This document shows, piece by piece, positions 50,396 through 58,996 of a stretch of DNA of 64,000 nucleotides. Source of the DNA: Natranaeroarchaeum sulfidigenes (GTDB taxonomy: Archaea; Halobacteriota; Halobacteria; Halobacteriales; Natronoarchaeaceae); NCBI RefSeq assembly GCF_017094485.1, contig NZ_CP064786.1, positions 744,001-808,000 of the forward strand, in the 5' to 3' direction. The notes beneath the pieces are model-generated. The model was given only the letters and a program-made list of their open reading frames with translations, did not search any database and was not told where the DNA came from. How positions within the stretch are numbered: position 1 is the first letter of the stretch; each line of letters begins with the position of its first letter. Both the position numbers and the translations under genes were made by a program.

Positions 50396-51637
50396 ATGTA
50401 CTACGCCTACAAGTACCGTCTCAAACCGTCCGACGCCCACCGCGAGGAGTTGGACCGCCACCGAGACATTTGTAGGCAACTGTACAACCACACGCTCTAC
50501 CGCCTCAACGAGTACCAAGATGAACACGGCGAACTGCCGTCCATGACCACGCTTCGGTCGGAACTTCCCGACCTCAAGAAGTGGTGGGACGGCCTCTCGG
50601 ACGTGTACTCGAAGGTCCTCCAAACCGTCGTGGAACGCCTGTTCGACAACCTCAAAGGACTCTCGGCGCTCAAGAAGAACGGCTACGGCGTCGGTCAACT
50701 CAAGTGGAAGTCGCCACGGGAGTTCCGCAGTTTCACGTACAGTCAGTCTGGCTTCAAGCTCGACAAGAAGGGCGGTCAGACTGTGCTGTCACTCTCGAAA
50801 CTCGGAAACATACCGATTCGACTCCACCGCGCCATCCCCGACGACGCGACGCTCAAACAGGTCACGGTTAAGAAGGAACCGACGGGCGAGTGGTTCGCCA
50901 CCTTCGGCGTCGAAATGGACCGCGAACCACCCGAACCGCCTGAGAACCCCGAGAAATACGTCGGTATCGACGTAGGAATTCTCAAGTACGCCCACGACAC
51001 CGACGGGACGGCGGTCGGGTCGCTCGACCTCACCGACGAGCGCGAACGCTTGGAACGCGAACAGCGGTCCCTCTCACGGAAGGAACACGGGTCGAACAAC
51101 TGGGAGAAGCAACGGCGACGGGTCGCGGAGTGTCACGCCGACCTTCGACGGAAGCGCCGCGACTTCCTCCACAAGCTCTCGGCGTACTACGCCCGAGAGT
51201 ACGACTTCGTGGCGGTCGAAGACTTGAACGTGAAGAGGATGCTCGAATCACCGTCGAACAGTCGCAACAGGGCGTCGGCGGCGTGGCGAACGTTCCTCTC
51301 GTTGCTCGAATACAAGTGTGAGCGCGAGGGGACGCACTTCGTCGCGGTCAACCCGGGAGGGACGACCAAGGAGTGCGCGGCGTGCGGCGTTTCGACGGAG
51401 AAGCCGTTGTGGGTCCGTGAACATTCCTGTCCCGCCTGCGGGTTTGAGGCGGACAGGGACGCGAACGCGGCGTGGAACATTCTTTCTCGCGGCCTCGAAG
51501 ACATAGGAGTGGGATACTCCGAATCAACGCCTGTAGAGACTGCGCTCCCTGTGGATACGCCTGTATCTGCAAAGCGCGTCGTAGAATCAGGAAGCCCTAC
51601 CCTCAAGGAGCGAACGGCGTCAGCCGTGAGCGAGTAG
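50396..51637 (+). CDS. tnpB: RNA-guided endonuclease TnpB family protein
   Basis: 413 aa. The RuvC-like active site is complete: Asp192 (VGIDVGILKY), Glu275 (VAVEDLNVKRML) and Asp355 (ADRDANAAWN); zinc ribbon CAACG and CPACG. The spacing fits the biochemically studied TnpB (ISDra2) well. Its N-terminal half holds the helical RNA- and DNA-binding region (MYYAYKYRLKPSDAHREELD). The stop codon lies inside the right-end hairpin, as in element 1. No TnpA in the window. Confidence 0.93.
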   Translation: MYYAYKYRLKPSDAHREELDRHRDICRQLYNHTLYRLNEYQDEHGELPSMTTLRSELPDLKKWWDGLSDVYSKVLQTVVERLFDNLKGLSALKKNGYGVGQLKWKSPREFRSFTYSQSGFKLDKKGGQTVLSLSKLGNIPIRLHRAIPDDATLKQVTVKKEPTGEWFATFGVEMDREPPEPPENPEKYVGIDVGILKYAHDTDGTAVGSLDLTDERERLEREQRSLSRKEHGSNNWEKQRRRVAECHADLRRKRRDFLHKLSAYYAREYDFVAVEDLNVKRMLESPSNSRNRASAAWRTFLSLLEYKCEREGTHFVAVNPGGTTKECAACGVSTEKPLWVREHSCPACGFEADRDANAAWNILSRGLEDIGVGYSESTPVETALPVDTPVSAKRVVESGSPTLKERTASAVSE

Positions 51638-52254: not shown

Positions 52255-53720
52255 CAGTCTGCCACCTCCTCGACGTCGTCGGCTGCAAGCACGTCCGACG
52301 GTCCGTCGTCCAGGAACCGTCGGGCATCGGTAACTTCACCCTCTACCGCCGCGGCGGCGACCATCGCAGGGCTCATGAGGACGGTCCGCCCGTCCTTGTC
52401 TCCCTGCCGGCCGATGAAGTTCCGGTTCGAGGAGGACGCACAGACCTCGTCGGCACCGAGTTTGTCGTCGTTCATCGCCAGACACATCGAACAGCCAGCA
52501 CGTCGCCATTCCCAGCCAGCCTCGATGAACGTCTGGTCGATACCGCGGGCCTCACACTCCTTGCGGACGGTCTCCGATCCGGGAACCGCGAGCGCCCAGA
52601 CGTCGTCGGGGACCTGCTGGCCCTCGATGATGTCGGCAGCGACTTCGAAGTCCGAGACTCGACCGTTCGTACAGGTGCCAAGGAAGGCGACATCGACGTC
52701 GTAGCCGAGCATCGAGTCGCCCGGCGACAGCTCCATGTGATCGAGCGCCTGTTCGGCGGCCTCCTGTTCTGTCTGGGTGGGAAGATCCGAGGGAGCCGGG
52801 ATCGGCTCGGATACCTCGATGACCTGTCCGGGGTTGATCCCCCAGGTCACGAGGGGGTCGATGTCGTCGACGTTGATCGTCACGACGTCGTCGTATTCGG
52901 CGTCGGCGTCGCTTTTGATCGACTCCCAGTATTCGACGAGTTCGTCGAAGGCCTCGCCCTCGGGGACGTACTCGCGACCGCGCAGGTACTCGTAGGTGGT
53001 TTCGTCGGGGTTGATATAGCCCGCTCGCGCGCCGCCCTCGATCGACATGTTACAGATCGCCAGGCGGCCTTCCATATCGAGCTCCTCGATCGCCGGGCCG
53101 CCGTACTCGTAGACGTGACCGACCCCGCCGTCAACGCCCAGCTCCTGGATGATCTTCAGGATGATGTCCTTGGCGTAGACGCCCTCGCCGAGACTCCCCT
53201 CGATCTCGATACGGCGGACTTTCTGCTTGTCGGCGGCGATACAGCCAGTCGCGAGCACGTCGCGGATCTGGCTGGTTCCGATTCCCACGCCGATCGAGCC
53301 AAAGGCACCGTGAGTCGCCGTGTGGCTGTCACCACAGGCGACAGTCATCCCGGGCTGGCTCAGCCCCAGTTCGGGCGCGACGACGTGCGTGATTCCCTGC
53401 TTGCCCGATTCGAAGTCGAAGAAAGTGATGCCGTTCTCGCCCGTGTTGGTCTCCAGGGCATCGAGCATCTCCTCGGACTTCTCGTCTTCAAGGGGTCGTT
53501 TTCGCTTTTCCTCCTGAGTCGGGACGATGTGGTCTGTCGTCGCGAACGTCCGCTCGGGGTACGCGACGTTCAGGTCGCGTTCGCGCAGCATGCCGAAGGC
53601 CTGTGGGCTCGTCACCTCGTGGACGAGATGCAGGCCGATGAACAGCTGATCCTGTCCGTTCGGCAGCTCCGTTACCTTGTGGTTCTCCCATACCTTGTCG
53701 TACAGCGTTCCATCACTCAT
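52254..53720 (-). CDS. leuC: 3-isopropylmalate dehydratase large subunit
   Basis: 488 aa aconitase-superfamily enzyme. Iron-sulfur ligands are Cys in FLGTCTNGRVSD and the pair in GCSMCLAMN. Active-site segments VACGDSHTATHGAFGSIGVG and NRNFIGRQGDKDGRTVLMSP are complete. Works with LeuD to isomerise 2- to 3-isopropylmalate. It overlaps the 83-aa upstream gene by 8 nt. Confidence 0.95.
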   Translation of the reverse strand: MSDGTLYDKVWENHKVTELPNGQDQLFIGLHLVHEVTSPQAFGMLRERDLNVAYPERTFATTDHIVPTQEEKRKRPLEDEKSEEMLDALETNTGENGITFFDFESGKQGITHVVAPELGLSQPGMTVACGDSHTATHGAFGSIGVGIGTSQIRDVLATGCIAADKQKVRRIEIEGSLGEGVYAKDIILKIIQELGVDGGVGHVYEYGGPAIEELDMEGRLAICNMSIEGGARAGYINPDETTYEYLRGREYVPEGEAFDELVEYWESIKSDADAEYDDVVTINVDDIDPLVTWGINPGQVIEVSEPIPAPSDLPTQTEQEAAEQALDHMELSPGDSMLGYDVDVAFLGTCTNGRVSDFEVAADIIEGQQVPDDVWALAVPGSETVRKECEARGIDQTFIEAGWEWRRAGCSMCLAMNDDKLGADEVCASSSNRNFIGRQGDKDGRTVLMSPAMVAAAAVEGEVTDARRFLDDGPSDVLAADDVEEVAD

Positions 53721-53964
53721 TATATACTCCCTCGTCGTGTGTGACTACGTCAGCCTGCCGGTCTCCGCCGCGCTCGAAGGCGGGGGCTGCCCCCTCGCCA
53801 TGGGGCGGGACGTGATCGACGTCCGCCATCTGTCCGTCGCTCGTCTCGTCCGATTCTGGAGACCCGCCGTCGGTAACGACTGTCGGGCCGCGCTCGAACG
53901 AGCGGGCCGCGCTGGCGTCCCCGAACGGGTGGGTGTGATCGACGTCTTGCATGCTGTCAGTCAT
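53713..53964 (-). CDS. 83-aa protein with internal repeat, embedded between ilvC and leuC
   Basis: The start (ATG at 53964) overlaps the end of ilvC by 8 nt and the stop overlaps the start of leuC by 8 nt, so translation is locked into the operon. The protein contains two copies of a DVDHxxPxGxxxAxxFERG motif: [20 protein letters not shown] near residue 7 and [19 protein letters not shown] near residue 48. Acidic, His-containing, no known family. A regulatory or metal-linked role in the pathway is a guess. Confidence 0.78.
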
Positions 53965-55664: not shown

Positions 55665-57431
55665 TCAGATGTCGTCCAGCTGGCTTGCGTTCAGTGCGAA
55701 CTTCCCGTTGTTTCCACCGCTTGGGACCATCGGGTAGACGTTCGCCTGTGGGTCGATGCGGAAGTCAATGACACTCGGGCCGTCGTACTCCATTGCGGCC
55801 TCGACGGCGTCTGCGACCTCGTCGTAGTTCTCGACTGCCTCGCCGTGGGCGCCGAACGCCTCGGCGAGCTTGTCGAATTCGGGACACCAGCCGTACTCCG
55901 AGGCGGCGTGACGCCCCTCGAAGAAGGCGTCCTGCCACTGGCGAACCATCCCGATGTACTCGTTGTTCAACACGGCGACGGTGATGTCCATGTTCTCGCG
56001 GACGGCGACAGAGAGCTCCTGCATCGTCATCAGGAACGAGCCATCGCCCTCGAAACAGATGACCTCCTGGTCATCGTCGGCCGCGACGCGTGCGCCGATC
56101 GCCGCGGGCAGGCCGTAGCCCATCGTTCCCAGACCGTTCGAGCTGACGAACGTGCGCGGTTCCAGCCAGTCCCAGTACTGCCAGGCCCACATCTGGTGCT
56201 GGCCGACACCGGTAGTGACGATCGCACGATCGCTCGTGGCCTCGTCCAGCGCCTCGACGACGAACTCCGGCTGGAGCGCGCGGTCCTCGGGGACCGGGTA
56301 ATCCATCGGATACTCCGCTTTCCACGTCTGGCACTGCTCGCGCCACTCGTCCGCGTCGGGCGCGTGCTCGATCTCGTCGTCGAGCTGCTCGATAACCGTC
56401 CCCGCGTCGCCGATCAGCGGGTAGTCGGCATGGACGTTCTTGCTGATCTCGGCGGGATCGATATCGACGTGAACGACCTCGGCCTCGGGGGCGAACGTCT
56501 CGATGCCGCCGGTCAGCCGATCGTCGAAGCGCGTCCCGATACCGATCAGCAGGCTGGAATGGTGCATCGCCATGTTGGCGAAGCCGGTGCCGTGCATTCC
56601 GCCGCCCGCCATCGAGAGCTCGTGGTCCTCCGGGAACGCGCCGGTGCCCGGCATCGTCGTGACGACCGGGATCTCGTACTCCGTCGCGAACTCGTACAGT
56701 TCCTCGGAGGCCTCGCTCCGGATGACACCCCCGCCCGCGAGGATCGTGGGCCGTTCCGCAGCTTCGATCGCGCGTGCGGCTTCCGCGATACTGTCCGGCT
56801 CGGCGTGCTCGGTGTACTCGTATGTGTCCGGAACCGTCGCTTCGCCCGGTTCGGCGTCGGTCTCGCCCAGCGTGATATCCTTGGGCAGGTCGACCAGGGT
56901 CGGACCGGGTCGTCCCTCACGGGAGAGCGCGAGCGCGGAGCCGACATCGTCGCCGACCGTATCGGAGTCGTCCGCAAAGATGTTGTGTTTCGTGATCGGA
57001 TCGGTCACGCCGGTCGTATCCGTCTCCTGGAAGGCGTCGTTACCGACGAAGTTCGTCGGGACCTGTCCAGTCAGGGCGACGAACGGATCGGAGTCCATTG
57101 AGGCGTCCGCGATGCCCGTGATGAGGTTCGTCGCGCCCGGCCCGGACGTCGCAAGACAGACACCAGGGTCGTTTGCGACGACGCCGTAGGCGTCCGCAGC
57201 GTGAGCCGCACCCTGCTCGTGGGCCATCGTGACGTGGGTGAGCTGCTCTGAGCTGTACAGCGCGTCGTAGACGGGCATGATCGCCCCGCCCTGAACGCCA
57301 AAGAGGTGTTCGACGCCGTCGTTTTCGAGCGCGCGGACGACCGCCTCCGCGCCCGTAGTGACGGGCTGTTGGTCCGCTTTGGCGTCTTCACCGTCCTCGG
57401 GAATCTCCGCGGCGTGTGCCGGTTCGCTCAT
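55665..57431 (-). CDS. ilvB: acetolactate synthase large (catalytic) subunit
   Basis: 588 aa thiamine-diphosphate enzyme; it joins pyruvate with pyruvate or 2-oxobutyrate. The catalytic Glu is in HEQGAAHAADAYG; the thiamine motif is GDGSFLMTMQELSVAVREN with NNEYIGMVRQWQ. A perfect Shine-Dalgarno (AGGTGATC) sits 4-5 nt before the ATG at 57431, which means the gene is read from a leadered mRNA; that fits the leader ORF and promoter found upstream. Confidence 0.95.
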   Translation of the reverse strand: MSEPAHAAEIPEDGEDAKADQQPVTTGAEAVVRALENDGVEHLFGVQGGAIMPVYDALYSSEQLTHVTMAHEQGAAHAADAYGVVANDPGVCLATSGPGATNLITGIADASMDSDPFVALTGQVPTNFVGNDAFQETDTTGVTDPITKHNIFADDSDTVGDDVGSALALSREGRPGPTLVDLPKDITLGETDAEPGEATVPDTYEYTEHAEPDSIAEAARAIEAAERPTILAGGGVIRSEASEELYEFATEYEIPVVTTMPGTGAFPEDHELSMAGGGMHGTGFANMAMHHSSLLIGIGTRFDDRLTGGIETFAPEAEVVHVDIDPAEISKNVHADYPLIGDAGTVIEQLDDEIEHAPDADEWREQCQTWKAEYPMDYPVPEDRALQPEFVVEALDEATSDRAIVTTGVGQHQMWAWQYWDWLEPRTFVSSNGLGTMGYGLPAAIGARVAADDDQEVICFEGDGSFLMTMQELSVAVRENMDITVAVLNNEYIGMVRQWQDAFFEGRHAASEYGWCPEFDKLAEAFGAHGEAVENYDEVADAVEAAMEYDGPSVIDFRIDPQANVYPMVPSGGNNGKFALNASQLDDI

Positions 57432-57569
57432 GCACGATCACCTGTTGGCCGTGCTGTGGTGGTTGGCTGGCGATACTGTCGTCGTGGGTGTCGGGATCGA
57501 TACATGGTTCGAGCGGTGACTGTGTGATCTACGGTCGATGCGGGCCGGGTCGAAAACTGTAGTAGTGGT

Positions 57570-57585
57570 GGGGCTAGAAGGCCCC
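57570..57585 (-). repeat. small GC hairpin overlapping the stop of the leader ORF
   Basis: GGGGC (57585-57581) pairs with GCCCC (57574-57570) around a six-base loop. It overlaps the stop of the 29-codon leader ORF. There is no strong U tract after it, only TTTT about 13 nt downstream. Confidence 0.5.
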
Positions 57586-57663
57586 TACGATCACACCGAG
57601 AAGACGTCGGACGGACCGGGTGCTGGCGGCCTCGGGCACACCAGCCGTGACGGTCCGTGTCAT
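57574..57663 (-). CDS. candidate leader peptide upstream of ilvB, 29 aa
   Basis: ATG at 57663, TAG at 57574. The peptide reads TRTVTAGVPEAASTRSVRRL and ends LLGVIVGAF: Leu-Leu-Gly-Val-Ile-Val lie in a row, the end products of the operon, as in bacterial ilv and leu leaders. A TATA-like element is centred 31 nt before the ATG, so the mRNA should start at or near it. An 8-bp perfect inverted repeat spans the first half of the ORF. The function is inferred. Confidence 0.5.
   Translation of the reverse strand: MTRTVTAGVPEAASTRSVRRLLGVIVGAF
57611..57658 (-). repeat. inverted repeat inside the ilvB leader
   Basis: ACGGACCG at 57611-57618 and CGGTCCGT at 57651-57658 are perfectly complementary (8 bp, 32-nt loop, itself with a GCTGG/CCAGC pairing). 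In the transcript it forms ahead of the Leu/Val/Ile codons. Confidence 0.55.
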
Positions 57664-57679
57664 CAGTACGCTTCTGATG
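57661..57679 (-). promoter_or_regulatory. inverted repeat at the ilvB leader start, operator candidate
   Basis: CATCAG (57661-57666) and CTGATG (57674-57679) form a 6-bp inverted repeat that overlaps the leader ATG, immediately downstream of the TATA box, in a position typical for repressor binding. Could also be a 5' hairpin of the mRNA. Confidence 0.45.
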
Positions 57680-57690
57680 CCCTTCGTGTA

Positions 57691-57697
57691 CATAATT
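57691..57697 (-). promoter_or_regulatory. TATA-like element of the ilvB leader promoter
   Basis: AATTATG on the minus strand, centred 31 nt upstream of the leader-ORF ATG (57663), the expected spacing for haloarchaeal promoters with transcription starting near the ATG. Confidence 0.5.
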
Positions 57698-57720
57698 CTT
57701 GTGAGTCGGAGCGACGTGTA

Positions 57721-57747
57721 CCGGTAGCTCGGGGTTGTCACTACCGG
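57721..57747. repeat. 7-bp inverted repeat between leuA and the ilvB promoter
   Basis: CCGGTAG (57721-57727) and CTACCGG (57741-57747), perfect, 13-nt spacer. It lies directly downstream of the leuA stop and upstream of the ilvB leader promoter; either a structure at the leuA 3' end or a regulator site. Confidence 0.5.
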
Positions 57748-57765
57748 CAAACCGGGAAGCGGTCA

Positions 57766-58996
57766 TCAGGCGCGGACCTCCTCGGTGCGCTTGATGCCCT
57801 GCTCGTGGGCGAACTCCTTCAGCATCTCCATCGTCACACGTTCTTTCTCCGCGCCACGGTCTTTCACCTGACGTGTGAGCGCCCGAACTTCCTCGTCGGT
57901 CGGCGCGAATCCGGCGTCTTCCAGCCGTTCGCGAACCGAGTGGTTGCCGGTGTGTTTACCCAGCACCAGCTTGCGGTGTGCGCCGACCATCTGTGGGGTC
58001 ATGACGCCCGGCTCGAACGTGTCGGAGTTCTCGATGACGCCCGCGGCGTGGATACCGCTCTCGTGGGAGAAGGCGTTCTCGCCGACGACGGGCTTGTTGC
58101 CCGGCACGTCGATCCCGCTTTTCTCCTCGACCAGCCGCGAGAGCTCGGTGATACGTGTCGTGTCGATGCCGGTATCGACCTGATACACCGATTCGATCGC
58201 CATCACGAACTCCTCGTAGGCCGCGTTGCCAGCGCGCTCGCCGATCGAGTTGACCGACACCTGTGCCTGTTTTGCGCCCGCCTCGATGCCCGAAAGGGCG
58301 TTGGCGGTCGCCAGCCCGAAGTCGTCGTGGGTGTGGACGTCGACGTTGGCGTCGGTGTGGGAGACGACCGTGCTGATCAGGTCGTAGAACCGGCGCGGCG
58401 TCGCCACGCCGCAGGTATCGGGGATGTTGATCCAGTCGGTCCCGGCCTCGGTTACCGCCTCGATTACCTCGATCAGATAGTCCTCGTCGGTGCGGGTCGC
58501 GTCCATCGGCGAGTACATGCAGATCGCGCCTGCATCCTTGACTCGCTCCACGGCGGCGACCGAACGCTCTACTACTTCCTCGCGGGTTGCGTGCATCGAA
58601 TCCTCGATCTGGACATCGCTCGTCGAGGAGAACACGTGGACCATCTCGACGCCGCTGTCGAGCGCGGCCTCGATGTCCTTGTCGACGACCCGGGCCAGAC
58701 CGCAGGTCGTCGTGGACGTGTGTTTTGCGATGTCACGTACTGCCTCGAACTCCGCGTCGGAGTTGACGGGGAACCCGGCCTCGATGACGTGGGTGCCCAT
58801 CTCGTCCAGCACAGCCGCTATCTCGCGTTTGTCTTCGTACGAGAACGATGTGCGGGGTGACTGCTCTCCGTCGCGGAGTGTGGTATCGAAAACGCGTGCT
58901 GACTCAATTTCGTCAGTGGAATCTAACGTGCCCTGGAAGAACTCGACCCCCCTGACTGGTGTCAGAGGACGAATCCATGGACGGTTGGTCGGACAT
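57766..58996 (-). pseudogene. leuA: 2-isopropylmalate synthase gene, frameshifted near its 5' end
   Basis: The body (from about 58940 to 57766) is intact: the sequence continues through FHTHDD-type region (VDVHTHDDFGLATANAL), GNKPVVGENAFSHESGIHA and GKHTGNHSV. The frame that encodes VEFFQGTLDSTDEIE and DTTLRDGEQSP has no start codon before a stop at 59013. The ATG at 58996, 30 nt after a TATA box (59023-59029), opens another frame (MSDQPSMDSSSDTSQG) that meets six consecutive Gs (58952-58947). Removing one G joins both frames into a 409-aa protein. As it stands, the frame is broken by +1. The first in-frame start after that (GTG 58812) would lose the metal-binding DTTLRDGEQ. Confidence 0.82.

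Follow-up and report, generated by a model that had tools for sequence, protein, structure and literature searches.

We propose that ilvB in haloarchaea is probably under ribosome-mediated attenuation: translation of a short upstream ORF, uORF1, would sense the supply of Ile- and Val-tRNA, and the result would be read out at the level of transcription. The sensor step appears very likely from the conserved sequence, and transcription as the read-out is the less certain half of the model. Ribosome-mediated attenuation is a textbook bacterial mechanism, and acetolactate synthase, with which Val and Ile synthesis starts, makes the precursors of both. An earlier note on this DNA had described a leader-peptide-like arrangement before ilvB and had named conservation in relatives as one of the tests that could refute it. 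The Ile/Val run is retained in 80/80 related loci, and the conserved ORF end, hairpin and codons in these relatives support the arrangement.

ilvB, leuA and the leader elements all read on the minus strand, and coordinates are those of the window, the whole 64,000-nucleotide stretch of DNA that was analysed. A gap of 334 nt separates the end of leuA at 57766 from the ilvB start at 57431. The features of this region are:

57689..57695, minus strand: TATA box TTATGTA of the leader promoter, beginning 32 nt before the uORF1 ATG
57574..57663, minus strand: uORF1, a 29-codon ORF (MTRTVTAGVPEAASTRSVRRLLGVIVGAF, then stop), probably leaderless, with an orthologous ORF in 80/80 relatives
57611..57658, minus strand: 8-bp inverted repeat inside uORF1 (57658-57651/57618-57611), present in the window and not conserved
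57586..57591, minus strand: putative sensor codons ATC-GTA (Ile-Val), with GTA in 81/81 loci and Ile at the preceding codon in 80/81
57570..57585, minus strand: stop hairpin GGGGC-CUUCUA-GCCCC, with TAG in the loop and 3' arm and a stem in 81/81 loci
57552..57569, minus strand: G-poor pyrimidine/A stretch with TTTTC (57556-57552), a candidate termination zone by its T-runs and composition
57428..57505, minus strand: uORF2 (MYRSRHPRRQYRQPTTTARPTGDRA, then stop), whose TGA overlaps the ilvB ATG (ATGA), absent from the earlier note
57436..57443, minus strand: Shine-Dalgarno sequence AGGTGATC of ilvB, within the end of uORF2, with an SD-like sequence before ilvB in 67/81 loci
55665..57431, minus strand: ilvB, acetolactate synthase large subunit (TIGR00118 acolac_lg above cut-off), the presumed controlled gene

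Several of these had been read from the window before, and we confirmed the 29-codon ORF before ilvB at 57663-57574, the promoter TATA as AATTATG at 57697-57691 (core TTATGTA at 57695-57689), the hairpin at the ORF stop (GGGGC at 57585-57581, GCCCC at 57574-57570) and the perfect Shine-Dalgarno AGGTGATC before the ilvB ATG at 57431 (57443-57436). None of the coordinates given earlier, whether of the TATA, the Shine-Dalgarno, the 8-bp repeat or the stop hairpin, is off by more than 2 bases.

Our comparison set consisted of 80 ilvB loci of other haloarchaea (n = 81 with the window locus). leuA lies upstream of ilvB in 80/80 of these, with a leuA-ilvB gap of about 280-650 nt. The loci are kin and counts over them are not independent; hence, key numbers were repeated on 40 cluster representatives. 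The motif pattern was composed after the first loci had been viewed, and whole-genome scans then tried it on other genomes. An extra set comprised six genomes without the strict pattern and two with it, and some of these eight may repeat species of the first set. The Rfam covariance models for leaders and riboswitches gave no match at gathering score in the window, and around the locus no hit appeared even at E values up to 10.

A small ORF with the end (Ile/Val)-GTA-GGG-G(C/T)..stop is present in the leuA-ilvB gap of 80/80 haloarchaeal loci, and in all 80 its stop codon lies inside or just past the GGGG/CCCC hairpin. At the DNA level, this end reads ATT/ATC-GTA-GGG-G(C/T), stop, CCCC. At the protein level, it reads (Ile/Val)-Val-Gly-(Ala/Val), mostly with one or few further residues before the stop. 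One locus within the 80, L051, is a variant with GTA-GTA-GGG, and four of the six genomes outside the strict pattern have variants with another CCCC spacing, or with Val (GTA) or Leu (CTC) in the place of Ile. The element is absent from two of 88 loci, L085 (G010) and L088 (G021), which have no recognisable uORF1. L088 also has the most divergent ilvB, with 60% identity. Whole-genome scans detected about one copy of the element per genome in most Halobacteria genomes; in the rest of the phylum, outside Halobacteria, they gave background-level matches only, without the stop. Compared across relatives, the leader ORF is far beyond what chance would produce. The body of its peptide is not conserved, with a synonymous share of changes of 31% versus 32% expected (20 pairs), and this fits an attenuator leader rather than a microprotein. 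The bodies of both uORF1 and uORF2 lack synonymous bias, and we reject a functional microprotein on that ground.

The start of uORF1 is also constrained. A recognisable TATA-like box stands 31–33 nt before the ATG in 70/80 loci, and exactly 32 nt before it in 58/80, using a TATA pattern that was widened by hand after the sequences had been viewed. Independently of that pattern, the first ATG past the TATA shares its frame with the IVG motif in 78/80 loci and in 37/39 cluster representatives. In the Haloferax locus L074, the leader ATG lies about 245 nt ahead of ilvB. With a spacing of 31–33 nt, the transcript is expected to begin with the ATG or only a few nt away from it, and uORF1 is thus probably leaderless, as are 72% of Haloferax protein-coding transcripts (PMC4983044). 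The earlier note took the Shine-Dalgarno before ilvB as what a leadered mRNA needs; the leader ORF itself is probably leaderless by its TATA spacing.

It is the codons at the end of uORF1 that point to a sensor. GTA occurs at the motif in 81/81 loci, although ilvB genes use it for just 0.4% of their Val codons. It is preceded by ATT in 68 loci, by ATC in 12 and by GTA in one, and ATT accounts for 7% of Ile codons in ilvB genes; in a few species, the motif has Val or Leu instead of Ile. At codons -6 to -2, which exclude the pair, ATT encodes Ile 56 times and ATC 11 times (84% ATT), and GTA accounts for 10 of 55 Val codons, with the rare Ile and Val codons standing at differing positions in differing clades. 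The rare-codon enrichment persists in the 40 cluster representatives (P 2e-21 and 7e-9). From this pattern we infer a sensor of tRNA charging, which would be expected to rely on rare codons for the amino acids that the pathway makes. Leu-Leu, which had been suggested as part of the sensor, is not conserved; Leu is encoded there by the common CTC and is therefore unlikely to be sensed, and Ile/Val codons are kept instead. The comparison does support the earlier view that the branched-chain codons are sited so that a stalled ribosome would cover the stop hairpin.

GGGG-CCCC pairing is found in 81/81 loci, in stems of 5–9 bp whose 5' arm directly follows GTA; in the window, the 3' arm starts with the G of the TAG stop. 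The next inward pair is C-G in 68 loci, T-A in five and T-G in two, the change from C-G to T-A being compensatory. In three of the five T-A loci, the last A of a TAA stop forms the pair. Nine loci have a GGGGCG/CGCCCC stem with the TAG 12 nt farther downstream, and across loci the identity of the stop varies between TAG, TAA and TGA, yet a stop is retained. Together, these stem variants and changed or moved stops show that stop codon and stem are both kept despite sequence change. Shuffled sequences are as stable as the 53-nt hairpin segment of the window (z 0.34), and hence support for the hairpin is comparative; the full leader is only slightly more stable than shuffles (z -1.3). RNAalifold found only the stop hairpin to be consistent across groups, and the two-hairpin switch of the earlier note is not supported, since the first hairpin is not a conserved partner of the second. 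That first hairpin, the 8-bp repeat, is perfect in the window but is not conserved (some perfect 8-bp repeat occurs in 12/81 loci, 4.1 expected), and we reject it as an antiterminator for that reason. No conserved antiterminator or second hairpin was found across the loci.

The 60 nt behind the hairpin are pyrimidine-rich, with nearly no G at +20 to +30. T-runs of at least four occur in 42% of loci, versus 11% of shuffles and 2% of all windows, and TTTTC occurs in 31/81 loci versus 12 expected. Transcription in Haloferax is terminated by T-stretches that end at C, and at a hairpin site put to the test there 59% of transcripts ended (PMC7237163). The T-rich stretch fits a termination zone, but it is not universal, as the count for TTTTC indicates. 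We also considered that the termination factor FttA might load at a C-rich site, an idea weakened by its preference for U-rich RNA (PMC11616081). Upstream of uORF2, about 45–60 nt past the uORF1 hairpin, Natrialbaceae and Haloferax loci (e.g. L053, L021) share the conserved sequence CGCA(C/T)CGTTTTCA-AGCGAC; the candidate termination motif TTTTC falls within it.

How would ilvB be translated from a transcript that passes this zone? The first ATG between the hairpin and ilvB opens the frame with the ATGA overlap in 68/74 loci, where one third would be expected, and in 32/36 representatives. This ORF, uORF2, is A/C-rich and its peptide shows no sign of selection; no constant TATA that could serve as a second promoter for it was found in the loci compared. 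Among Haloferax operons, genes that overlap by 4 nt are the most frequent arrangement; SD motifs in 5'-UTRs there recruit no ribosomes, and those near stops have been proposed to aid re-initiation (PMC3986360). Because Haloferax 5'-UTR SD motifs recruit no ribosomes, the Shine-Dalgarno before ilvB more likely serves re-initiation from uORF2. The ATGA overlap, the Shine-Dalgarno in the end of uORF2 and these precedents suggest that ilvB is probably translated by re-initiation.

In the mechanism that we propose, translation of uORF1 would report the supply of charged Ile- and Val-tRNA and would thereby control ilvB, and probably the genes behind it too. When Ile- and Val-tRNA are plentiful, the ribosome would reach the stop and depart, the GGGG/CCCC hairpin would form, and most transcripts would end in the T-rich zone ahead of uORF2. 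When either tRNA is scarce, a ribosome paused with ATT/ATC or GTA in its A site would cover the 5' arm of the stem, because a footprint of the general ribosomal size, with ATT or GTA in the A site, would reach that arm. With the 5' arm covered, the hairpin would not form and transcription would go on, and ribosomes entering uORF2 would re-initiate on ilvB. The locus has several traits of a ribosome-mediated attenuator, namely a putatively translated leader ORF with conserved frame, start and promoter, codons for the pathway products near its end, and a hairpin that a paused ribosome would block. Against the model stand the shortness of the hairpin in the window and its stability no greater than that of shuffles, the occurrence of TTTTC in a minority of loci, the failure to find a conserved antiterminator, and the two of 88 loci without the element.

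The same sensor could instead have a translational read-out, which we regard as possible but rather unlikely. In that case, the RNA of uORF1 would hide the start of uORF2 or ilvB, a paused ribosome would free that start, as in erm-like systems, and uORF2 would pass ribosomes on to ilvB. uORF2, with its ATGA overlap and Shine-Dalgarno, is consistent with such control, as are perfect complements of at least 8 nt between the uORF1 end and the ilvB start in 25% of loci (versus 3.9% of codon shuffles) and, in some species, complements of 9–12 nt to the stretch before uORF2. However, duplex energies from uORF1 to the ilvB start or the uORF2 start equal those of shuffles, and the longer complements occur in some clades only (for the ilvB start, in two), at varying places. 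A translational read-out would also leave the stop hairpin without a clear role.

Attenuation through tRNA charging differs from stalling on the peptide itself, in which a small molecule, for instance free valine, would cause a nascent Ile-Val-Gly-Ala/Val chain to arrest the ribosome. An arrest peptide would be expected to end in nearly invariant residues, as IVG(A/V) are here, but Gly-Ala is imposed by the GGGGC of the stem, and the residues upstream of IVG are not conserved, so that the conserved exit-tunnel sequence typical of such peptides is lacking. Moreover, the rare synonymous codons ATT and GTA are preferred, for which a peptide-level mechanism has no need; we consider arrest improbable. 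A similarly low probability attaches to the view that a protein binds ATTGTAGGGGC..GCCCC as RNA or DNA, or that this sequence signals mRNA ends or processing, with the ORF incidental. Although the high nucleotide conservation of the 10-mer plus stem and the roughly single copy per genome would suit such an element, in 78/80 loci the promoter is followed by an in-frame ATG, the stop is retained through TAG, TAA and TGA and through a moved position, and the rare Ile/Val codons occupy differing positions by clade. Finally, a chance arrangement in one genome, which the short hairpin and small ORF might suggest, is refuted by conservation, since the arrangement recurs in 80/80 relatives with spacing and frame conserved, and its probability is negligible.

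Among known systems, the actinobacterial ilvB leader of Corynebacterium, Mycobacterium and Streptomyces comes closest (PMC1262725, PMC10272879). There too, a short ORF precedes ilvB, and its Ile/Val/Leu codons overlap the terminator (PMC1262725), that is, a hairpin followed by a T-rich stretch; the simplest cases need no separate antiterminator, and none is conserved in the haloarchaeal element. In contrast, the actinobacterial leader has a bacterial intrinsic terminator with poly-U, whereas the haloarchaeal element has a putatively leaderless uORF, a less regular T-stretch, a shorter hairpin that holds the stop codon, and a second ORF overlapping ilvB. Codon changes in a similar ilvB leader of Streptomyces were without effect (PMC1262725), a warning for the haloarchaeal case. 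Enterobacterial trp, leu and ilv attenuators share with our element rare or repeated product codons where a paused ribosome alters RNA folding, but the haloarchaeal element lacks their conserved antiterminator/terminator pair and long run of regulatory codons. Like erm and cat translational attenuators, it has a leader ORF whose paused ribosome could release a downstream start; unlike in those systems, pairing at the start site is not consistently supported. In Haloferax, mapping of transcription start sites identified small ORFs in long 5'-UTRs, two of them before tRNA-ligase genes (PMC4983044, Table 2). The likeness lies in the small 5'-UTR ORFs; the table does not include ilvB (HVO_1508), sensor codons or a mechanism. 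A literature search, largely without subscription journals and preprints, found no archaeal leader-peptide attenuator, and an archaeal Ile/Val leader before ilvB appears not to have been described before.

The neighbouring gene, leuA, has an unusual start of its own:

58913..58996, minus strand: leuA start overlap region, with TCGAGTTCTTC at 58946-58936

In 73/79 loci, leuA has no in-frame ATG, GTG or TTG within 66 nt before its conserved N-terminus. The frame one base earlier does offer an ATG in 79/79 loci, often with a TATA 32–35 nt before it, and TCGAGTTCTTC (CGA-GTT-CTT) is invariant where the two frames would join. Downstream of TCGAGTTCTTC, the leuA frame is strongly coding (68% synonymous versus 29% expected); upstream, the ATG frame is weakly coding (29% versus 23% expected). 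An in-frame CTG is available to leuA in 49/79 loci. This pattern fits either a +1 frameshift at the rare CUU Leu codon or a non-AUG start. The start problem of HVO_1510 (leuA2), with possible slippage or a CTG start, has already been noted, and leucine control of leuA2 at the level of translation has been speculated upon (PMC8305020). That case concerns the adjacent gene of the same cluster, with an out-of-frame leuA start and no separate ilvB leader. As a tentative extension, the haloarchaeal ilv-leu cluster might be under decoding-speed control, with a leaderless Ile/Val leader and a re-initiation ORF for ilvB and a +1 frameshift at a conserved CUU for leuA; together they would make up a class-wide system of amino-acid control through translation, evolved independently of bacterial attenuators.

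Elsewhere in the cluster, an 83-aa ORF between ilvC and leuC (53713-53964, minus strand) consists of two similar halves (VDH..P.G...A..FERG) and has no Pfam or NCBIfam match. A TnpB/OrfB IS605-type protein (PF01385, PF07282) is encoded at 50396-51637 on the plus strand, opposite to the ilv-leu cluster and immediately past its leuD end.

What would such a leader mean for haloarchaea? A Halobacteria-wide leader, if true, would show that coupling between translation and expression is used for amino-acid feedback in archaea, and Haloferax volcanii would be a genetically tractable model carrying such control. A leaderless leader ORF and a re-initiation ORF would be twists on the bacterial design. 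For annotators, the element offers one conserved short ORF per genome to name.
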